Positions 51,109 through 63,820 of a stretch of DNA of 64,000 bases are shown here, one piece after another. Position 1 is the first letter of the stretch, and each line of letters starts with the position of its first letter. Under the pieces are notes generated by a model. The model was not told where the DNA came from. It saw only the letters and a program-made list of their open reading frames with translations, and ran no database searches. Source of the DNA: Hoeflea sp. (GTDB lineage: Bacteria; Pseudomonadota; Alphaproteobacteria; Rhizobiales; Rhizobiaceae); NCBI GenBank assembly GCA_019084245.1, contig JAHRFE010000026.1:124001-188000 (forward strand). Reading direction: 5' to 3'. A program made the translations under genes and the position numbers.

Positions 51109-53568
51109 CTAGGCCGACCGGTATTCCTTCGACTTGAAGGAGACGGCTTTCACCCGTGGCGTCGCATTGGCGATTTTCCGGATGTTGCCCCATGTGTGCT
51201 TGTAGTCAGGAAGCACCAGTTCGTTCACGCCGGGACTGACAACGTTGCCTTGGCTTCCGGCCGGGGAGCCGAACACCATGGCGACGTGGCCGCGCTTGGC
51301 CGTGTCGGTCGGATAGGCCATGCCCTGGGTCGCCCCGTTGCCATTGGAGATCTCGATCAGATCCCCGGCAGCGATCCCCTCTTCCGCCATGTCCTCTTCG
51401 TTCATCTCGATGAACGGATAGGGGAAGCGGTCCTGGATAAAGTCGATGTCCTGATCCAGGAACTGGTTCTGCCAGAAGATGTTGGCGCGCACATTGTTGA
51501 TCCAGTACTTGTGGGTCTCCTTCTCGCGTGCCTTGCCGGCAGCCTGCCAGCCCCGCCATTTGGCGGCGCAGAACAGCGCCTTCTTGTCCTCGCGTCCGTG
51601 CCGGGTGAATTGGCCATCCGTGTAGAGGCGCTCGGTGCCGATCAGCTTGCCGTCGGCATAGCCGCTCACCGGTTCCTGCACGCCATTGTTGCCCATGGCG
51701 CGCAGACGCTCGTAGGTGACTTCCGGATTGCCCTTGTTGTAGCCATCCATGAAGGCGTCTTCCTCGGTCTGCCAGTCATAGCCCTTGAACTGGTCGGCAT
51801 AGGCTTCATTGCCCATCTCGCGCAGAACCCGTTCCATGTTCTGCGCGACGCCGGCGGCAATCAGGCAGTCCGGTCTCGAGTTTCCATAGGGGTCCATGTA
51901 TTTTTCCGACAGGCGCAGGCGCCGCTCGCCGTTCATCGAGGTCAGATTCATCTCGTTGGCTTCGCAGGCGGGCAGGATGACATGGGCATTGTGACCGATC
52001 TGGCTGTGGATGATGTCGACATCGACCACGAACAGACCACCGCCATTGACCGCTCCGACAATGGCGTCGACCAGTTGTTCGCGTGTGCCTCCGGCAGCAT
52101 AATCCATGGCTTCCTTGACCATGTCGGCCCGGCGCTTGTGCACCCGCTTGAACTCGGACGCATTCAGCGTGGTCTTGTGATGGTCGCAGGCCCACACATG
52201 GTGGATCTTGCCGCCGCCGCGGATCAGCAGCTGGTCGACATATTCCGCCGGCCGGCCGACATGGGCGTCAGACGGACGGTAGTAGCCCTCCTGGTGGCCG
52301 CCGAGGCGGCAGACGCCGCCACCTTCGCGGCCGATATTGCCGGTGGCCAGACCAATGTTCACCAGCGCGCCAATGGTGCGATAATTGTCATTGCCCCAGA
52401 TGATGCCCTTCTCATAGGCGGTGACGCATGTGCGCCGCGATCCGTCATCCTTGGGCTTGGCGATCCATTCCGCCGCCTTGGCGATGTCGGCTTCCGACAC
52501 ACCGCAGATTTCCGCCGCATCGGCCAGCGAGGTCCGGCAGGCGTCGAGTGCGTAGTCGAGGCTGCCGAGGCCGGCCGGATGGCCGTCGTCCAGCGGCGTC
52601 GCCTCACCGCCCTGGAAGGTCGAGTTGGCGATGAAGTCCTTGTCGACCCAGCCATTGTCGACGATGTGCGTGAACAGCGCATTGAACAGCACCATGTCGG
52701 TGCCTTCGTTGATCGCCAGATGCAGGACGTTTTCCTTGCCGGCGACTTCCTCGGCGGCGTTGATGGTGACCGTGCGACGCGGATCGACCGAGACGAAGCA
52801 GGCGCCGTTGCGCATGCCCGGAACCATGTGGTTGAGGAACAGGTTGGTCTGTGTCTCGAGCGAGTTGGCGCCGATCATGAAGATCGTGTCGGTGATCTCG
52901 TAGTCCTTGTAGGCATAGTTCAACTCGTCGACGCCCATGTCGCGGGTCGAATGGACCTCGGAATTGTAGGCCGGGCGGTTATGGATGCGGCAGTTCTTGA
53001 CCTTCATGCTCTCGAAATAGAGCTTGCCGGTGGCCCAGGTGTTCTCATAGCCGCCGGCGGAGCCGCCATGGTCGAACATCGAGACGACGAGATCGTCTTC
53101 GGAGCCCTGCGTGACGACACGGGCGGTGACGCGGGCGACAAGATCAAGCGCATCGTCCCAGGAGGTGGGCTGCCAGACGCCGTTGCGCCACATCATCGGG
53201 TCGCTCAGCCGCTGCTGCTGGGTGCCGGTGACATAGGACGGGCGGGCTTCCGCCATGCGCGCGCCGCGGACGGAACCGAGGCCGGAATTGACCACGCAAT
53301 CCTTGTCGGGAACCACGGCGAGATGGACATCCTTGCCGTCCTGGCGGACGATATTGTACATCGACGGCGCGATCCAGGTGCCGTCGGCTGCCTGCTGTTC
53401 GCCGAGGTTGATGCCGAAGGCGTTCTCCGTGAGCGTGCCCTGCTTGTTGCGCGGCCAGGTGTAGGCCTTGTAGCCGCAGCCGACGATGCAGTAGTGGCAG
53501 GTGACGTTGTGAACCTTGGCATCCTTGGGGGGGATGGGCAGGCGATCGATTTGTCTCTTGTAAGCCAT
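51109..53568 (-). CDS. aioA: Arsenite oxidase large (molybdopterin) subunit AioA
   Basis: An 819-residue molybdenum enzyme of the DMSO reductase superfamily that oxidises arsenite to arsenate in the periplasm. The N-terminal motif Cys24-x2-Cys27-x3-Cys31 (CHYCIVGC) binds a [3Fe-4S] cluster, and serine replaces the fourth cysteine as in known AioA (SGLGSVRGARM). HNRPAYNSEVHSTRDMG and IGANSLETQTNLFLNH are AioA-typical. The length matches the family (about 825). No signal peptide is present; the subunit is carried out by the Tat signal of AioB. It follows aioB after 16 bp. No cytochrome c or moeA gene follows, unlike many aio operons. Confidence 0.97.
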   Translation of the reverse strand: MAYKRQIDRLPIPPKDAKVHNVTCHYCIVGCGYKAYTWPRNKQGTLTENAFGINLGEQQAADGTWIAPSMYNIVRQDGKDVHLAVVPDKDCVVNSGLGSVRGARMAEARPSYVTGTQQQRLSDPMMWRNGVWQPTSWDDALDLVARVTARVVTQGSEDDLVVSMFDHGGSAGGYENTWATGKLYFESMKVKNCRIHNRPAYNSEVHSTRDMGVDELNYAYKDYEITDTIFMIGANSLETQTNLFLNHMVPGMRNGACFVSVDPRRTVTINAAEEVAGKENVLHLAINEGTDMVLFNALFTHIVDNGWVDKDFIANSTFQGGEATPLDDGHPAGLGSLDYALDACRTSLADAAEICGVSEADIAKAAEWIAKPKDDGSRRTCVTAYEKGIIWGNDNYRTIGALVNIGLATGNIGREGGGVCRLGGHQEGYYRPSDAHVGRPAEYVDQLLIRGGGKIHHVWACDHHKTTLNASEFKRVHKRRADMVKEAMDYAAGGTREQLVDAIVGAVNGGGLFVVDVDIIHSQIGHNAHVILPACEANEMNLTSMNGERRLRLSEKYMDPYGNSRPDCLIAAGVAQNMERVLREMGNEAYADQFKGYDWQTEEDAFMDGYNKGNPEVTYERLRAMGNNGVQEPVSGYADGKLIGTERLYTDGQFTRHGREDKKALFCAAKWRGWQAAGKAREKETHKYWINNVRANIFWQNQFLDQDIDFIQDRFPYPFIEMNEEDMAEEGIAAGDLIEISNGNGATQGMAYPTDTAKRGHVAMVFGSPAGSQGNVVSPGVNELVLPDYKHTWGNIRKIANATPRVKAVSFKSKEYRSA

Positions 53569-53584
53569 GATTGTTTCTCCTCCC

Positions 53585-54109
53585 TCAGAGCACGTTCGAC
53601 GGGCGGCCGAAAATCAGGTCGCTTGCGCCCTCGGCATAGATGTCGCCCTTGTCGTCCACGCTGAGCGTGAACTGCGGCACATTCTGCGTGGCGTGGCCCC
53701 AGATCTGCTGGCCGCCGGCCTCGCAGTCGAACCGGGAGAAATGACCCGGGCAATTGAGCGACTTGTCGTCCGCGCGGTAGCTCATCAGCCAGCCCTTGTG
53801 CGGGCACAGCACGGAGTAGGCCACGATATCGCCATCGGGCCCGACGCCGCCCTCGACCGCGTGGCCGATCTTGAGAAGGATGCCAGGGCTGTCTTCGTCC
53901 GGATAAGTGATGTCGACGGGCTCGTTTACCGCGAGATCGGCAACATTGCCGAGCCTGTTCGCCGGATAATCGAGCAAGGCGCTCCCCGACGCTGCGCGGG
54001 CCTGTTCCGCCGGCAATACGGTCGCGGTTGCGGCCCCGGCGGCGGCGATCGCCCCGCCCCTCAGGAAATGACGACGGCCGAGATCGACCATTTTGTTGCA
54101 TCGAGACAT
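53585..54109 (-). CDS. aioB: Arsenite oxidase small (Rieske) subunit AioB
   Basis: A 174-residue Rieske protein that takes electrons from AioA. A twin-arginine signal (GRRHFLRGG, Arg12-Arg13) directs export of the complex. The [2Fe-2S] ligands are in CPH-x15-CPGH (CPHKGW and CPGHFSRFD). The two extra cysteines that form a disulfide in many Rieske proteins are replaced (Trp in CPHKGW, Gly in CPGH), as reported for the alphaproteobacterial NT-26 enzyme. The ATG at 54109 follows GGGAGGAA. A sigma-54 promoter lies 37-52 bases upstream. Confidence 0.96.
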   Translation of the reverse strand: MSRCNKMVDLGRRHFLRGGAIAAAGAATATVLPAEQARAASGSALLDYPANRLGNVADLAVNEPVDITYPDEDSPGILLKIGHAVEGGVGPDGDIVAYSVLCPHKGWLMSYRADDKSLNCPGHFSRFDCEAGGQQIWGHATQNVPQFTLSVDDKGDIYAEGASDLIFGRPSNVL

Positions 54110-54145
54110 GCGTTCCTCCCATGCGGTTGTCTGCAGGGATCTGTA

Positions 54146-54161
54146 AGCAATGCGCATGCCA
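54146..54161 (-). promoter_or_regulatory. Sigma-54 (-24/-12) promoter of aioBA
   Basis: On the minus strand TGGCATG-CGCA-TTGCT matches the sigma-54 consensus with one deviation (T for C in the -24 box). Transcription should begin around 54135, about 26 bases before the aioB ATG. The 50 bp upstream (54162-54215) are extremely AT-rich, suiting DNA bending between activator and polymerase. AioR, encoded just upstream, is the expected activator, as in Agrobacterium. Confidence 0.85.
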
Positions 54162-54259
54162 AACTTCTATGTTATTGTTATAATTTAATATTTTTCGTTA
54201 TGGGCAAAAATTGAAGGCGTGATTCATCGGGATTCCGAACATGGTGCGGCGCCGAAGGT

Positions 54260-55586
<1,327 letters not shown>

Positions 55587-55597
<11 letters not shown>

Positions 55598-57041
55598 GAT
55601 TGATCTCCACGAAGGCGTCCGAATCAAGCGTGATCCTGACGATGCTGCCGCCGCCGGGTCTTGGCTCAACGGCCAGCCCTGCGCCGATTTCGTCGGTTAT
55701 CTGCCGCACGACCCACAATCCAAGTCCCTTGCCTTCCGGCAGGTTTTTCGGGGCCGGGCCAGTCAGCAGACTGAGAGAGTCCAACGGAAAGCCAGGTCCG
55801 CGGTCGCCCACCTCGATCATGAGGCTGTCTTCCCGTTTGAGCGCCCACAGGAACAGATCCGCGCCGTCGGGTGATGCCGCGCTTGCGTTGAGAAGAAGAT
55901 TGATCACGGCCTGACGGACGGGATCAGCCGGACAGTTGCAGGCAAAACCGTCCTCGCATTCCAGCAAGAGCTCCAGCGCCTGTCCCCGACTGCGCAACTC
56001 CGGCGACAGCAGCATCTTTGCGTCGTGAAAATCACTCAAGGAGAGCGGTCTTGCCTGGCGTGACGGCCTGTAAGTGGCGAGTGCCGCGCGCACCACTTCA
56101 CCGATCCCCTGCAGACCTCGCTGCAACAGATCCAGCGAAGACTTGCGCACTCCGGCGTCGGCGCCGTGCTTCTTCAGCGTGTCCACGGCATTGAGCAGCC
56201 CGCCCAGCGGATTGTTGATCTCATGAGCCATGACGGAAGACAGACGGCCAAGACTTGCAAGCTTTTCCTCCTCGGCCAGCCTGGTGGACAGCTCCCTGCG
56301 CTCTTCATCGGCATCAAGCAGCGAATTGTAGGCCATGAAGAGCCGCCTCGTCTCGGAATTGCCTGACGTCTGCGGAGACACCCCGATACGCGTGGCCTTT
56401 CCCTCCGCCGCCTCGATCATATGGCTTTCAAGGGTTTGCATGGGTCTGATCATCCTGCGCACGGTCATGAACCCGACCAGCACGAGGAGCACAGTCAACC
56501 CGGCATTCGTCAGGATCAGAGTCGATAGAACGTCGCGGCGTTCGGCCAGAAGCAGGCGCGCGTCGAAAATTGTGTAGATGCGGCCGATGGTGGTGTCCTG
56601 ATAGACAATGTCCCTTTCAAGATAGGCAAGCCCGTCATCGCTCTCGATCCTGATCTGCCTGTCGGGAAACTGCTCGATGTGCTGGTCGTCCATCTTTTCC
56701 AGGCTCGGATATCTGAGCGGGTCAGTGGCGGCCAGAATGCTGCCTGAGGGCGTGGTGACAATGGTCTCGACCGGGACGATCGCTGTATTGACCGGCCGCA
56801 ACCTCTCGAGCGCATCAAAGATTTCCCAGCTGTCTTCGCGCAGGACCGAGGGGGATATCGACGCTGTCACGCCATCCAGATAGGAGTTGGCGATGCTTTG
56901 CAGGTAGGTTTCCTGGATCGAGCCGAGGCGGTCGAGAACTCTCTCGGTAATGACCGCCGACACCAGGACCATGAGAACCGAGACGGCGAGCGGCACCCGC
57001 CAGATCAAAGGCAGGCGAAAGAAGCCAAACCGGCCCCTCAC
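55587..57041 (-). CDS. aioS: Arsenite-responsive sensor histidine kinase AioS
   Basis: A 484-residue membrane kinase. The first helix is about residues 11-31, a periplasmic sensor domain follows to about residue 160, and a second helix (TLILTNAGLTVLLVLVGF) leads to a HAMP-like linker. The phosphoacceptor is in VMAHEINNPLGG, and the ATPase domain has GDRGPGFP and GKGLGLWVV. The start is a GTG (57039-57041) overlapping the aioX stop by 4 bases. AioX with bound arsenite is thought to signal to its periplasmic domain. Confidence 0.93.
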
Positions 57042-57931
57042 AACACACCTCGCAGCCTGGCCACCATGCCGGCTATCCCTTCGAAGGCCTTCTCCTGGGG
57101 CATTTCGAAACCGGTCAGTCTCAGCAGATCCAGCACTTTCCGGCCCTGCGGGCTCGATCCCATATCAACCAGGGCCTCTTGCAGGGCCAGGGCCTTCTCC
57201 GTTCCCGCCATTTTCCGGCTTGTCGCAATCGGCGGAAACCCCAGCCACTTGGAACGGCGCAAGACCCTTGTCTGGGAAACAAGCGCGGGCTCCAGTTCCA
57301 GCATCACTTCCCAGACATAGCCGTCGACACTGCCGGATTGGGCCAGACTGGAGGCAACGGCGCGAATGACATTGCGATGGCCATAGGTGAACAGCGTCTT
57401 GCGGAAAAAGGTCTCCGGATCCAGACCATGCTCGAACATCAAGGTGCGGGTGACGAGAAACCCCGAATTGGAATCGGGATCGGAGAAGGCATGGATGTCG
57501 CCACGCAGATCGAGGACCGTTTCCGCATCCCGATCCGCCGCCACGATCAGATAGGATTGGTAGTACGGCTTTCCGTTCCAGGCCGGGATCGCGACCAGCT
57601 CAAGGTCGTCGCGGTACTGGATATAGGGGTAGCCGCAGATCCAGGCTGCGTCGAGCTGCCCCGACACCAATAGCGAGGTCACTTCCTGGTAGGTGCGCCG
57701 CGTGACCAGGTCCACGCTGTGGCCTGTTGCCGCTTCCAGATAGAGCTTCAACGCGTCCAGCAGCTGGATGTCATTGTTGAGAAAGACCGGAGTCAGTCCA
57801 AACCTGATCGCTGGCAAACCCGCCCGGGAAGCCTTGCTCGAACCAAATGCCAACGGAACGCACGCCCCGCCCGCGATAAAACGCCGGCGGGACAGGGCAA
57901 CGGCAAAACCTGACCGTCGATCCTGTGACAT
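57038..57931 (-). CDS. aioX: Periplasmic arsenite-binding protein AioX
   Basis: A 297-residue binding protein of the phosphate/phosphonate (PhnD-like) type. A Tat signal (SRRRFIAGGA) is at the N-terminus. The ATG at 57931 follows GGAGGAG; the GTG directly before it is less likely. A single Cys in the mature domain (AAWICGYPYI, Cys99) is at the place where AioX proteins have a cysteine required for the arsenite response. It is the first gene of aioXSR and starts the signalling chain that leads to aioBA expression. Confidence 0.93.
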   Translation of the reverse strand: MSQDRRSGFAVALSRRRFIAGGACVPLAFGSSKASRAGLPAIRFGLTPVFLNNDIQLLDALKLYLEAATGHSVDLVTRRTYQEVTSLLVSGQLDAAWICGYPYIQYRDDLELVAIPAWNGKPYYQSYLIVAADRDAETVLDLRGDIHAFSDPDSNSGFLVTRTLMFEHGLDPETFFRKTLFTYGHRNVIRAVASSLAQSGSVDGYVWEVMLELEPALVSQTRVLRRSKWLGFPPIATSRKMAGTEKALALQEALVDMGSSPQGRKVLDLLRLTGFEMPQEKAFEGIAGMVARLRGVL

Positions 57932-58302
57932 CACTCCTCCCCCGAGGCTTTGTACCGCGATAAGCCGGGCGCATTCAAATCAAACTTCGGGCAAAATGCG
58001 ATTGGCCATCGAATTCCTGATCAGATCCGGAAATGCATTTGTGTATATCGGCTCATGGAGAAGTCCAAGCAGATGCTCTCTAGCCTATTTGCCCTGACCG
58101 AACCGACCCGGGGCCGCCATCCGGATCTTGTCCGATGACGTTGCGCATTGGGTTAGCGAACGGATGGAGGGCTTCTGTCAAGGTCTCGCGGAAATGTTGT
58201 CAAAGCCAGAACGCGCCCCGACCGGCAACCAGACCGGCGGCCAGCAGCGCCCTGCTCGAAACCCTCGATCAGGATAATGAAAGCCGGCCAAGTTCATTCC
58301 GC
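57932..58302. other. 371-bp region between the ACP gene and aioX
   Basis: No gene is recognised here. It must contain the aioX promoter: on the minus strand TTGAAT (57973-57978) and TACAAA (57949-57954) are spaced by 18 bp, a weak candidate. No sigma-54 element was found, so aioXSR may be expressed constitutively at low level. No convincing terminator follows the ACP gene, so read-through from the upstream cassette into aioX cannot be excluded. Confidence 0.4.
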
Positions 58303-58548
58303 TCATTTCTGCCTGGTTGACAGATAGGTTGCAGCCTTGGCCGGCGTTTCGATCAGGACGTAATCATCCTCCGGGATATCCACTCCCAACCTTTCGTGCA
58401 GAGCCGCCACGAGGTTGAGCACATCCATGGAATCCAGTTCCAGATCATCCTGGAGCTGATCGTCCTGCCTGATTGTCGCAGGATCGAGGTCGGGCGCCAC
58501 CTTGACAAGTTCCTCGATGAACAGGGCGTAGAGCGTATCGTAAGTCAT
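58303..58548 (-). CDS. Free-standing acyl carrier protein
   Basis: An 81-residue acidic four-helix protein. The phosphopantetheine attachment site is Ser40 in LELDSMDVLNLV, a clear DSM motif. It is not the fatty-acid ACP AcpP by sequence (helix II differs and there is no fab context). Its start overlaps the stop of the E2 gene by 4 bases, so it is made together with an oxo-acid dehydrogenase. An ACP in such a place is unusual and suggests that the complex works on, or delivers to, an ACP-bound acyl group. Confidence 0.9.
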   Translation of the reverse strand: MTYDTLYALFIEELVKVAPDLDPATIRQDDQLQDDLELDSMDVLNLVAALHERLGVDIPEDDYVLIETPAKAATYLSTRQK

Positions 58549-59840
58549 AGGGCCTCCGGGGCTTGTAAAAGCTGGTCGATCTCGCTGAGGAAGCGGGCGC
58601 CGCGCCGGCCGTCGCTGGTCCGGTGATCCGCCGCAAGCGTCACCGCCACGGCCTGGCGGACCTGAACGGCGCTGCCCACGACCCGCGCCACCGCCCGCGG
58701 CGTTCCAAAGGTCACAAGCGCCACCTGCGGAGGATAGATCACCCCGCTCATCTGGTCGACGCCACGCTCGCCAAGGCTTGAGATGGTGATCGTGCCGCTG
58801 GTCATTTCCGAGGAGCGAAGCCGTCCCGCGCGGGCGCGGGCGACCAGGTCGCGCATGCCGGCCATCACCTCGGCCAAGGTCTTGTCCTCCGCCGCCGGGA
58901 TCGCCGGCGCAACCAGGCCGCCGCCGCGCAAAGCGACAGCGACACCTGCATTGACGGATTCAGAGGGACGGTAGACGCCCTGCTCGAAAGTGCCGTTCAA
59001 GCCGTCGACGGCTTTGGCGGCCAGAGCCGTGGCCTTGACGAACAACGCGCCCATCAGCAGCCGGTCGGCAGGGCCGACATCGGCATTCTTCGCCGCGAGC
59101 CATTCTGTGGCGTGTTGAAGGTCGACCTCATGGGTCATGTAATAATGCGGAATCTCCCGCTTGGACCGCGTCATGGCGGCGGCGATGCCCTGGCGCATGG
59201 CCTCGATATCAAAACCGCGCACGGGTTTTGTAAGCGAAACCGCCTCGATTGCCGGCGAAGCTGACGCCGGGACGATCGCGTGCTCTACATCGGCCAGGAC
59301 AATCGCGCCGCCGGGCCAGGTCCCGGTGACGCGGGTAAGATCGATCCCCTTCTCCGCCGCCAGGGCGCGTGCTGCGGGAGATGCGGCGATGCCCAGGCGT
59401 GCTGCGGCGGGAGCCGGCATCGGCGGCGCCGGGGGTGGCGGCACCGCCGCGGCTTCGGGCACGGGAGCCTGGGGTACTGGCGCGTGCGTCTCCGTGGCGG
59501 GAGGAACATCGGGTTCTGGCGCCTTTGGCTCCGGTTTGGCAGGTGTGGCGGGCGGAACAGCCTCCTGCACCAGGACCGGTTCTTGCGCCGGGGCCGGTTC
59601 TCCCGAGCCATCCCCGATCAAGGCCAGGGCGGCGCCAACGGGCAGCGTCGCGCCAAGCTCCGCCTCCAGCGACTGCACGATCCCGTCCTCGAAGATCTCG
59701 ATCTCGATTGCCCCCTTCTGGGTCTCGACCACGGCGACAACGTCGCCGCGATGGACCGCATCGCCGGGTTTGACCAGCCATTCGACGAGCTTGCCGTCCT
59801 CCATGTCGGCGCCAAGCGAAGGCATGACGAAGACGCTCAT
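58545..59840 (-). CDS. Dihydrolipoamide acyltransferase (E2) of an oxo-acid dehydrogenase complex
   Basis: A 431-residue E2 enzyme. Residues 1-80 form a lipoyl domain with the lipoylated Lys42 ([11 protein letters not shown]). A Pro/Ala/Glu-rich linker (80-145) leads to a peripheral-subunit-binding domain (about 147-185, [16 protein letters not shown]). The catalytic domain has the HxxxDG motif at His406-Asp410 (DHRTSDG). It is coupled by 4-base overlaps to the E1 gene before and the ACP gene after it. Its acyl specificity is unknown; pyruvate or a short branched oxo-acid is possible. Confidence 0.92.
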
Positions 59841-61852
59841 TGACCCTTACCCTTACCCCGTCCCATCGCTGCGCGGGCCGCCGTGACAATATCGGCAATC
59901 TGGGGGATCGACGCCGCTTCGAGATGGGCGGGATAGGGGATCGGCACCTCCTTGGCGCAAACCCGGCCTAGTGGCGCATCGAGATGCCAGAACGCCTGTT
60001 CATTGATCCGGGCGATGATCTCGGCGGAAATCGAGCCGCTGCGCCAGCCCTCGTCGATCACCACCGCCCTCCGGGTCCGGGCCAGGGAGGCCATGATCGT
60101 GGCGTCGTCCAGCGGCCTGAGGCTGCGCAGGTCGATGACTTCCGCCTCGATGCCCTCGGCGGAGAGTTTCTCCGCCGCCTCCAGCGTCTTCCACAGCGAG
60201 CCGCCATAGGTGATCAGGCTCACGTCCCTGCCCTTTCGCCGGATGGCGGCGCGATCGATATCCACCGCCCCCGCCGCCTCGTCGAGCGCGCCGGTCATGT
60301 TGTAGAGCATCACGTTTTCGAAGATCAGCACCGGATCGGGATCCTGAAGCGCCGTCCAGAGCATGCCTCTCGCATCCTCGATCGTCGCCGGTGCCAGCAC
60401 CCGAAGCCCGGGGATATGGGCATACCAGCCCTCGAGGCTGTGCGAATGCTGCGCGGCGAGCTGCTTGCCCGCGCCGGTCGCCATCCGGATCACCAGCGGC
60501 ACGCCGAACTGACCGCCCGACATGTGGCGGATCGTGGCTGCGGTGTTCATGATCTGGTCGAGCGCCAGCAGGCTGAAATTGACCGTCATCAGCTCGACAA
60601 TGGGCCTCATGCCAACAGCGGCGGCGCCGATGCCGAAACCGGTGAAGCCCGATTCCGACAGCGGCGTATCGCGGATGCGGGCCTCGCCAAACTCCGCCAT
60701 CAGCCCCTTGGTCACGGCGTAGCAGCCGCCATAGGCCCCGACATCCTCACCCATGAGAAAGACCCGCTCGTCGCGGATCATGGCGTCGCGGATCGCCTGT
60801 TTGACCGCCTCGCGGTAGGTCACCTCCTGGGTCCGGCCCGAGGCTGCTGCGGCAACCGGCCGAGGCGCTGGCTCATCAGCCACGACGTGCCGCATCAGTG
60901 TCTCCACCGGCTCCCAGGTGCCTGCCTCGGCGAAGGCAACGGCTTCGGCGATTTCCGCCGCGACCTCGGCCTCGATGCGGGTGATGTCGCTGCCCTGGAG
61001 AAGGTGGTTTTCCAGCAGCCACCCCTGGAACCTTACAATGGGTCCCTGGGCGCGGAATCTGGCAACCTCTTCCTTGTCGCGATAGAGCTGCGCGTCAAAC
61101 ATGGAATGGGCGCGGAACCGGTAGGTGCGGCATTCGAGGAAATACGGCTTGCCGGTCTCGCGAATGCTGGCGATCGCCCGCCGGGCGGCGGCTTCCACCG
61201 CCACGACGTCCTGCCCGTCCACGACTTCCGAAACAATGCCGTAGGATGCTGCCTTGGCATGGATGTCGGTTTCCGATTCCGAACGGGCGAGCGCCGTGCC
61301 CATGGCATAGCCATTGTTTTCGCAGACAAACAGCGCCGGGACCTGCCACAGCTGCGCCAGATTCATCGTCTCGTGAAATTCCCCCTCCGCAACGGCCCCT
61401 TCCCCGAAGAAGCATACGGTAATGCCTGGCGCGCCGGACAGTTTGTCACCAAGCGCCAGACCGCCTGCCAGGGGCAGGCCGCCACCGACGATGGCATTTC
61501 CGCCGAAGAAATTCGTGGGCGCGTGGAACAGGTGCATGGAGCCGCCCCGCCCGCCCGAACAGCCCTCGGCCTTGCCGTACATCTCCGCCATGACCTCGGG
61601 CATGGGCACGCCGCGGGCCAGGGCCTGTCCGTGCTCGCGGTAGGTCGCCACAATCCGGTCGTCAGTGCCAAGCACAGGGATCACGCCCATGGCGATCGCC
61701 TCTTCGCCATCATAGAGATGGAGGAACCCGCGGATCTTCTGCTGGGTGTAGAGTTCGGCGCATTTGTCCTCGAACTGGCGGATGCGGATCATGCCCTTGA
61801 GCAATTCGGTAACATGGGCGTGGTTCAGGTGGGTCTTTTCGGTCTTGCTCAT
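59837..61852 (-). CDS. Fused E1 alpha/beta subunits of an oxo-acid dehydrogenase
   Basis: A 671-residue thiamine-diphosphate enzyme in which the alpha subunit (about 1-330) and beta subunit (about 342-671) of a pyruvate/acetoin-type dehydrogenase are joined by an Ala/Pro linker. The TPP motif is GEG-x-NN ([12 protein letters not shown] to CENN), with Glu for the usual Asp of GDG. The beta half has [12 protein letters not shown] and [15 protein letters not shown]. It should decarboxylate a 2-oxo acid and acylate the lipoyl arm of the E2. It overlaps acs and E2 by 4 bases each. No E3 (lipoamide dehydrogenase) gene is near. Confidence 0.93.
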
Positions 61853-63588
61853 GACTCATCCGTCTCCAGCGTGGAAATGTCGCCTTCGGGCAGGCCAAGT
61901 TCGCGCGCCTTGAGCAGGCGGCGCATGATCTTGCCCGATCGCGTCTTTGGCAGGGTCTTGCGGAATTCGACCGTGCGCGGGGCCACCGCCGGACCCAGTT
62001 TCTTGCGGGCATGGCCCCTAATCGATTTCTCAAGCTCGTCGGAGGGTTCGTAGCCGGGATTGAGCGAGACATAAGCCTTGACGACCTCGCCAGCCGTCTC
62101 GTCGGGCAGGCCGATCACGCCGGCCTCGGCGACCGCCTCGTGCTCGATCAACGCGCTCTCCACCTCGAACGGCCCGATCAGGTGGCCGGAGGACTTGATC
62201 AGGTCGTCGGCGCGGCCGACGAACCAGAAATAGCCATCCTCATCCTTGAGCGCCAGGTCGCCGGAGATGTACCAGTCGTCCACGAAACACTTCTTGTAGC
62301 GCGCCTCTTCATGCAGGTAGGCCCTCATCATCGAAGGCCAGCCGGCTTTCAGCGCGAGATCGCCGATCTCTCCCGGCTTGCAGGGCCTGATGCCGCCATC
62401 CTCGCGGTTGAGAATCTCAGCCTCTATTCCAGGCAGCGGACGGCCCATGGAGCCCGGCTTGATGTCCATGTCGAGCGTGTTGGCGATCATGATGCCACCG
62501 GTTTCGGTCTGCCACCAATTGTCGTGAAACGGCAGGCCGAAGGTCTCGCTGCCCCAGACGACGGCCTCCGGATTGAGTGGCTCACCGACGCTGGCGAGGA
62601 AACGCAGCGAGGAGAAATCATATCTGGCGGCGGCCTCCTTGCCGGCCCGCATCATCATGCGGATGGCAGTGGGGGCGGTGTACCAGACCTCGACCTTCTC
62701 GCGCTCGATCGTCGCGTACCAGCGCTCAAGATCGAACTCGGCCTCGTCGATGATCAGCGTTGCGCGGTGCACGAGTGGCGCGATGATGCCATAGGAAGTG
62801 CCCGTGACCCAGCCGGGGTCGGCCGTGCACCAGTAGATGGCGCCGGGCCTGAGTTCGAGCGCGTAGCGGCCCGTCGCGGCATGATTGAGCACGGCATGAT
62901 GGACATGAACAGCGCCCTTGGGGCGACCCGTGGTGCCCGAGGTGAAGTGAATCAGCGCCTCGTCCTCGGGACGCGTCGGAACAGCCTCGAAGCCGGGCGA
63001 GGCTTCCTGCATGGCGGGATCGAGCGCGACACAGCCTTCGGGCGCTGTCTCGCCGACAATCAGCACGAGCCGCATCGAGGGGATGTCCCGGATCCAGGGC
63101 TCGATCTTGCGCCGGTAAATCGCCTCGGTGGTGACGAGAGCATTGGCCTGCCCGATTTCCATCCGGGTCCGGATCGGTTCAGGTCCGAAGGCCGAGAACA
63201 AAGGCGTGAAGGTCATCCCGGCCTTCAGCGTGCCAAGCGCCGCATGGAAGACCTCGGGCTGTCGACCGAGCAGCGAAAACACCCGGTCGCCGCGGCCAAG
63301 CCCATGGCTGGCCAGCACCGACGCGAACCGCGCTGATGCGACGCTGAGGTCGGCATAGCTCAGATCCAGACGCTCGCCCGACTTGCCGAGCCACCGAAGC
63401 GCCGTGACGGACCCGAAACCATGCGCGACATGCCGGTCTACAGCTTCATAGGCGATATTGATCGCCCCGCCGGGAAGCCCGTCGAGCAGTTCCTTCTCGA
63501 TTTTTTCCCAGGAAAAAGCGGCGCGAACTCCGGACGTGAGTTCAGCAGTCGCACGAAGCGTCTCCGGCTTGATGATGGTCTCCCACAT
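61849..63588 (-). CDS. acsA: Acetyl-CoA synthetase-like acyl-adenylating ligase
   Basis: A 579-residue AMP-forming ligase, shorter than typical Acs (about 650) and closer to the AcsA type. The motifs [12 protein letters not shown] (P-loop), [27 protein letters not shown] and the C-terminal catalytic Lys in [11 protein letters not shown] are intact. The ATG at 63588 has GGAGG upstream; 21 further codons upstream are open but unconvincing. It is the first gene of the ligase-E1-E2-ACP cassette, so it may activate acetate or another acid for, or from, that pathway. Confidence 0.9.
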
Positions 63589-63820
63589 CGGCAATCCTCC
63601 CTGACTGCCAGTATTGCGGCAGCCGGGGCAGACCACATTGATGCACATCAAGGAAACATATCATCGGCCGGATATGCGGCCCGATACCCGGTGTCGAATT
63701 GCGTGACAATCCAGCGATCGCGGGCCGATTTCGACAAACGAGCAAACAGGGCTGCAGCGCCCTGCTGGCACAGGGTGCCGGAAATGATTGTCTGGAGGCC
63801 CACCGGCTCATGAGCCGGCC
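63589..63820. promoter_or_regulatory. Upstream region of the acs-E1-E2-ACP cassette with stacked palindromes
   Basis: Three perfect dyads occur within 72 bp: CAGGGC-N6-GCCCTG (63747-63764), GGCAC-AGG-GTGCC (63767-63779) and the 16-bp palindrome CCGGCTCATGAGCCGG (63803-63818). The last lies just after the SPOR-like gene stop and may form a small hairpin at its mRNA end; the first two are candidate operators. No clear -35/-10 was assigned. Confidence 0.4.

Follow-up and report, generated by a model that had tools for sequence, protein, structure and literature searches.

Organization of the cassette

A four-gene cassette of Hoeflea sp. joins the parts of a pyruvate dehydrogenase (PDH)-type complex to an AMP-forming acyl ligase and an acyl carrier protein (ACP), which raises the question of whether such a complex passes its acyl group to CoA or to a carrier protein of its own. 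The cassette lies in the 64-kb stretch of DNA that was analyzed (hereafter the window) and consists of four minus-strand genes at 58303–63588, which form one operon in the order ligase, fused E1, lipoyl E2 and ACP. The features are as follows.

63638–63651, palindrome with no assigned strand: FNR/FixK-type box TTGATGCACATCAA, 50–63 nt upstream of the ligase ATG
61849–63588, minus strand: AMP-forming acetate-CoA-ligase family protein (AcsA-type), identified by the NF003313 profile
59837–61852, minus strand: PDH-type E1, alpha/beta fusion of 671 aa with E1_dh, Transket_pyr and Transketolase_C domains
58545–59840, minus strand: E2 of 431 aa with Biotin_lipoyl, E3_binding and 2-oxoacid_dh domains, identified by domain profiles, an AlphaFold model and Foldseek
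58303–58548, minus strand: dedicated ACP of 81 aa, identified by the PP-binding profile and the alignment of cassette ACPs

The ligase starts at the ATG at 63588, which has GGAGG ahead of it, and the ORF list also holds an upstream TTG at 63651. Adjacent genes overlap by 4 nt at all three junctions (61849–61852, 59837–59840 and 58545–58548), and the four same-strand genes with 4-base overlaps reported in the first-pass annotation were confirmed by ORF and domain analysis. Among relatives, the coupling was counted from the gene end, as an overlap-permitting stop sequence (ATGA, GTGA or TTGA). By this measure, the upstream gene ends in a way that permits a 4-nt overlap in 106 of 108 relatives at the ligase–E1 junction, in 100 of 102 at the E2–ACP junction and in 35 of 87 fused loci at the E1–E2 junction, and the 4-nt overlaps in the cassette appear to exceed chance. 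The strict coupling that had been claimed holds in part: overlap-type ends are kept at the ligase–E1 and E2–ACP junctions, but the annotated ACP start lies 9–12 nt past the E2 stop in four of the 10 annotated plasmid records.

The cassette has no E3 gene, as had been stated, and two lipoamide dehydrogenases scoring over the curated cut-off are located elsewhere in the genome. A second PDH-type set is found on the same contig (C30, 221–228 kb), approximately 35–40 kb from the cassette, and its E1 halves share 41–42% identity with the cassette E1.

Conservation and distribution of the cassette

Cassette-type E1s were found in 14 of 297 genomes in a family sample and in 14 of 398 genomes in a phylum sample (own genome included in both cases). 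Further loci came from the best 80 of 395 matches in a species-level genome collection and from plasmids, so that 114 cassette loci (110 non-redundant) were scored besides the window. Among the best 80 of the 395 matches, the closest E1 relatives belong to three Hoeflea genomes and one alphaproteobacterium (91–94% identity).

Conservation of the ACP beside the E1/E2 pair was the check that the first-pass annotation had proposed for its reading. An ACP gene lies 3' of the E2 in 107 of the 108 loci with enough DNA (105 called by script, plus L046 and L064, the latter read by eye), so homologous clusters do not usually lack it. A ligase gene lies 5' of the E1 in all 111 loci with enough DNA. The single ACP exception is a locus of Sediminimonas qiaohouensis (L104, 1–4100), in which E1 and E2 are open, the ligase is represented by its last codons only and the ACP is missing; judged from its sequence, it is a decayed or misassembled copy of the cassette. 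All four genes are present in the 13 other cassette genomes of the 398-genome phylum sample. Plasmids gave the same picture, with an ACP in all 12 loci opened from 29 records whose E1 identity is 60% or higher (10 annotated genes and two calls by profile). The plasmid records add Rhodococcus and Streptomyces (Actinomycetota), Cupriavidus (Betaproteobacteria) and Photobacterium (Gammaproteobacteria) to the range of the cassette, which is found in Alpha-, Beta- and Gammaproteobacteria and in Actinomycetota. Neither a ligase nor an ACP was found beside the canonical E1 (41–47% identity) in any of 14 control loci, one of which (L051) has only 353 nt past its E2; a further locus (L183) was too short to be counted.

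E1, ligase and ACP

The E1 shows the alpha and beta halves of a ThDP-dependent enzyme of a PDH-type complex. Its alpha half scores 418.1 against TIGR03182 (curated cut-off 393.85) and its beta half 407.1 against NF006667 (curated cut-off 321). Cassette E1s form one group apart from 17 canonical rows (support 99), in a quick tree in which some canonical branches are long and two canonical rows come from the same locus. That the E1 is fused, as noted earlier, is correct for the window, but fusion does not define the cassette, because alpha and beta are separate genes in 20 rows and fused in 91 by the script label, which counts the truncated L046 as fused.

The ligase reaches 862.7 bits against NF003313 (cut-off 729; 600-aa frame 61849–63651). 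The WW motif, which we take to mark an acetate-type pocket, is present in 106 of 106 cassette ligases, and the conserved Lys, presumably catalytic, in 105 of 106, with one gap. With the curated score, the acetate pocket and the Lys, the protein has the features of an AMP-forming acetate-CoA ligase, and, scoring as one, it may be able to use CoA. It thereby resembles AcsA and PRK04319, from which it differs in its basic residues at 528–530 and in its distribution: NF003313 members over the cut-off occur in six of 120 sampled phylum genomes, and all six adjoin a cassette E1. Arg528 is present in all 106 cassette rows vs. nine of 24 canonical Acs (comparison set 24/24 loci), and position 530 is Arg or Lys in 96 of 106 cassette rows vs. 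Glu or Asp in 24 of 24 canonical Acs. Since the AcsA-type chain 9g79 has K, Q and G at 528–530, the basic cluster is not general in the AcsA family, as judged from this one sequence. A docking patch for the ACP at 528–530 is plausible, and the same basic residues could hold CoA.

The ACP scores 36 bits against the PP-binding profile (cut-off 20.8). The intact DSM site previously described in this 81-residue protein is present, with Ser40 in LDSMD, and the Ser is conserved in all 103 non-redundant cassette ACPs aligned. Calculated net charge is –12 for the window ACP, with a median of –13 over the aligned part of the cassette ACPs (n = 103), and by these values the cassette ACP is strongly acidic.

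Cassette-specific changes in E2

By its predicted domains, the E2 is of the PDH type, with a lipoyl domain, an E3-binding domain and an HxxxDG acyltransferase domain with catalytic residues H406 and D410. The lipoyl Lys is K42 (window 59715–59717) in ETQKG, the position of the canonical Arg is occupied by L248, and the C-terminus reads P428-E-A-L. An AlphaFold model (mean pLDDT 80.9) matched E2 catalytic cores in Foldseek, and nothing further was drawn from it. In a domain scan of 23 cassette E2s, lipoyl and catalytic domains were detected in all 23 and the E3-binding domain in 21; a cruder motif for the E3-binding domain matched 38 of the 105 deduplicated cassette E2 sequences. A lipoyl-Lys motif was found in 92 of the 105 and not found in 13, and in 88 of these 92 it takes the form ETQKG, the usual form being ETDKA. 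In a locus of an uncultured Roseicyclus (L112, 8325–13237), the E2 appears to be split in two and the ligase has a short frame, possibly through frameshifts on this metagenome contig.

The 105 cassette E2s were compared with 43 canonical rows from 44 of 47 loci (L049, L050 and L182 were dropped), of which 42 were alignable (L055 was not). Position 248, where we take the Arg to be a CoA contact in Azotobacter E2p, holds Arg in all 42 alignable canonical rows and Leu, Val or Ile in all 105 cassette E2s. Arg at position 305 is present in all 105 cassette E2s and is specific to them, Met occupies 326 in all cassette E2s but one (104 of 105) and never in the canonical rows, and position 222 is Ala in 101 of 105 cassette E2s and Arg in 39 of 43 canonical rows. 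Against a loss of CoA binding, several basic residues are kept in the cassette E2s, namely R335 together with R337 (104/105) and K/R269 (100/105). The chain ends three residues past P428 in 94 of 105 cassette E2s, five in five and four in three, with three rows cut or frameshifted, and at least five residues past this position in 42 of 42 canonical rows.

The CoA pocket of E2 has been described as a broadly positive surface (PMC8626477), and by position count R335 probably corresponds to the CoA-contacting Arg named there. The C-terminal helix has been described as a knob in trimer–trimer contacts, with CoA entering from inside the hollow core (PMC8421416). Because the knob joins trimers and CoA enters from the hollow core, a free trimer would have its acceptor face open to a protein carrier, and the shortened knob suggests that the cassette E2 forms free trimers instead of a 24- or 60-mer core, with the acceptor side within reach of the 9-kDa carrier. 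The cassette-specific E2 changes thus fit a carrier protein as acceptor, and all of them may trace to a single ancestral event.

An FNR/FixK-type box upstream of the operon

The reading of the first-pass annotation, in which the ACP serves as acyl acceptor or substrate carrier, gains partial support from the near-constant ACP and from E2 changes that fit a carrier acceptor, but it had missed an FNR-type box. The consensus of FNR/FixK is TTGAY-N4-RTCAA, and the box at 63638–63651 is its only exact match in the window (0.13 expected). Upstream regions of up to 400 bp were taken from 105 cassettes, the window included, and 33 of them contain an exact box. Loci of at least 14.5 kb contribute 92 upstream regions, of which 30 have an exact box and 72 a box with no more than one mismatch. 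Among 92 random 350-bp pieces drawn once from these loci, six reach the one-mismatch level. The other 20 upstream regions have two or more mismatches, and a clear box is not present in every copy. Box density is 1.02 per kb upstream of cassettes vs. 0.04 per kb elsewhere, and none of 14 canonical E1 loci has an FNR-type box. The cassette thus carries the upstream box of an FNR/FixK regulon, and binding of such a regulator is predicted. Because the box is enriched upstream of the operon, the cassette is probably controlled by oxygen and switched on when oxygen is low. A sigma-70 promoter scan found no promoter.

Genomic neighborhood

Stress-type neighbors were detected at 57 of 93 cassette loci vs. 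four of 14 control loci, which we take as supporting evidence only, as the queries were picked from cassette neighborhoods and the controls number 14. Universal stress proteins are encoded within 7–9 kb in seven of the 10 annotated plasmid loci, several of which also have PEP synthase, Hsp20, CBS or Crp/Fnr genes. A Pfam scan of 88 of 113 length-selected neighbor ORFs found 77 families, and the 25 families examined include P-type ATPase (9), PPDK/PEP synthase (5) and LonB (3). Acetate kinase/Pta neighbors are present at three of 97 cassette loci and at none of 14 controls.

The minus strand directly downstream of the cassette (51109–57934) encodes an arsenite oxidase (aioA/aioB, over the TIGR02693 and TIGR02694 cut-offs), along with a substrate-binding protein, a sensor kinase and a sigma-54 response regulator, presumably the aioXSR set. 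An arsenic link was rejected, because a search of the other cassette loci, comprising 93 of at least 14.5 kb and two shorter ones (L056 and L057), gave no match (E ≤ 1e-20) to any of the five aio-type proteins. A defence role was likewise rejected, as PADLOC gave no match. Approximately 8 kb past the right end of the window, a 525-aa kinase/AAA protein is encoded on the minus strand (L005, 8408–9985), and its homologs lie near the cassette in seven other loci, including those of Rhodococcus and Streptomyces.

Proposed function and alternatives

We lean towards a low-oxygen, FNR/FixK-type-controlled PDH-like complex that acts through its own dedicated ACP, and we infer the substrate, the acyl acceptor, the ligase direction and the regulator as parts of this best explanation. 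The ThDP-dependent E1 would decarboxylate a 2-oxo acid, most likely pyruvate because the alpha half exceeds the curated cut-off of the PDH alpha model, and would then reductively acetylate the lipoyl domain of E2. E2 would transfer the acetyl group to the phosphopantetheine arm of the ACP instead of to CoA, and a borrowed E3 would reoxidize the lipoyl group. The ligase would work on the same acetyl-ACP. We favor discharge to acetate, in which AMP and PPi would yield ATP, since neither the 10 annotated loci nor 25 of the 77 Pfam families from 88 neighbor ORFs showed a recurrent neighboring gene for another consumer of acetyl-ACP. The reverse direction, in which ATP drives the loading of acetate onto the ACP for use elsewhere, is nearly as likely. 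An AMP-forming acetyl-CoA synthetase is reported to run in the ATP-forming direction in Syntrophus (PMC4992975). Against this explanation stand the basic residues kept in the cassette E2s, the possible use of CoA by the ligase and the rarity of acetate kinase/Pta neighbors. In its most far-reaching form, which we put forward only tentatively, the cassette would be a CoA-independent energy module from pyruvate to acetate, induced at low oxygen in Proteobacteria and Actinomycetota, with the ACP charged by E1/E2 and the ligase running backwards to give acetate and ATP.

Alternatively, the cassette could encode an auxiliary PDH and an acetate-CoA ligase that both make acetyl-CoA at low oxygen, the ACP being a side partner such as a regulator or an acceptor in a minor activity. 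In its favor, the E1 halves and the ligase exceed the curated thresholds for PDH and acetate-CoA ligase, and the E2 retains its catalytic residues and R335/R337. Against it, the ACP is conserved to about the same degree as the catalytic genes, and its gene is tightly coupled to that of E2; the E2 has lost an Arg that is constant elsewhere, together with the last part of the C-terminus that forms the core; and the genome already has a separate PDH-type set. We regard this alternative as unlikely. A slightly less probable one is that the ACP is charged from two sources, pyruvate by way of E1/E2 and acetate by way of the ligase, with acetyl-ACP feeding biosynthesis elsewhere, for example as a fatty-acid or polyester starter. 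Both enzymes handle acetyl groups and share an operon with the carrier, and on a plasmid of Sulfitobacter sp. SK012 (L264, 2183–5585) genes for FabI, a bifunctional enoyl-CoA hydratase/phosphate acetyltransferase and acetate kinase adjoin the cassette, as does an alpha/beta-fold hydrolase gene. A condensing enzyme, however, is annotated in none of the 10 annotated loci (from an incomplete gene table) and was not seen among the 25 of 77 families from the 88 neighbor ORFs; the annotated loci have a GNAT gene in two cases and a pair of AMP-binding genes in one. It is very improbable that the ACP serves lipoylation of E2 as octanoyl donor and not acyl transfer, for although LipB takes octanoyl from ACP (PMC9307952), lipA/lipB are annotated in none of the 10 annotated loci and the E2 changes and the ligase would be left unexplained.

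Relation to known systems

It was too strong to state that the PDH-like complexes described so far lack an ACP of their own. SclQ1–4, QncN/QncL/QncM and NapB/NapC/NapD, from antibiotic clusters, are described as E1/E2-type loaders of C2 units with a dedicated ACP (PMC6335953, PMC7570522), so that, on these accounts, PDH-like enzymes that load their own ACP with a C2 unit are already known. The cassette likewise encodes E1 parts, E2 and ACP together, as expected of an ACP-loading PDH-like system. As described, all three systems have PDH/transketolase-like E1 parts and a dedicated ACP, and Scl and Qnc also a lipoyl and an acyltransferase part; their substrate is proposed or reported to be a ketose phosphate, they serve peptide assembly lines, and the parts of these sources available to us describe no linked acetate ligase. 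Compared by these descriptions, the cassette differs in its PDH-type E1, its ligase and its FNR-type box. No peptide-antibiotic genes are annotated within 7–9 kb of the cassette in the 10 annotated loci, of which that of Cupriavidus has two unspecified AMP-binding genes upstream.

Ordinary PDH complexes share with the cassette the domains, the catalytic residues, the lipoyl Lys and the E3-binding domain. The cassette is set apart from them by its separate E1 group and the 41–42% identity of its E1 to the PDH-type E1 of the same genome, by an E2 in which the canonical Arg is missing and the C-terminus is shorter, by the constant ACP and ligase, and by having no E3 of its own. The acetate:ACP ligases of citrate lyase and malonate decarboxylase load acetyl groups onto a dedicated carrier, as proposed for the cassette, but the citrate lyase ligase belongs to a different family and neither system is known to have E1/E2. 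A literature search weighted towards open-access papers, with few subscription papers, found no description of the cassette. The novelty of the cassette lies in its being a strongly conserved module that stands alone, carries an oxygen-type box and an acetate ligase, and occurs in two phyla.

If the acetyl group does go to the ACP, the cassette would be a widespread bypass of CoA in the carbon flow from pyruvate, one that is today annotated as ordinary pdhA and acsA genes. The canonical and cassette E2s would then form a clean pair for studying how an acyltransferase chooses between a small cofactor and a carrier protein, and the cassette would offer oxygen-starved bacteria a way to ATP or acetyl-ACP that can be put to the test.
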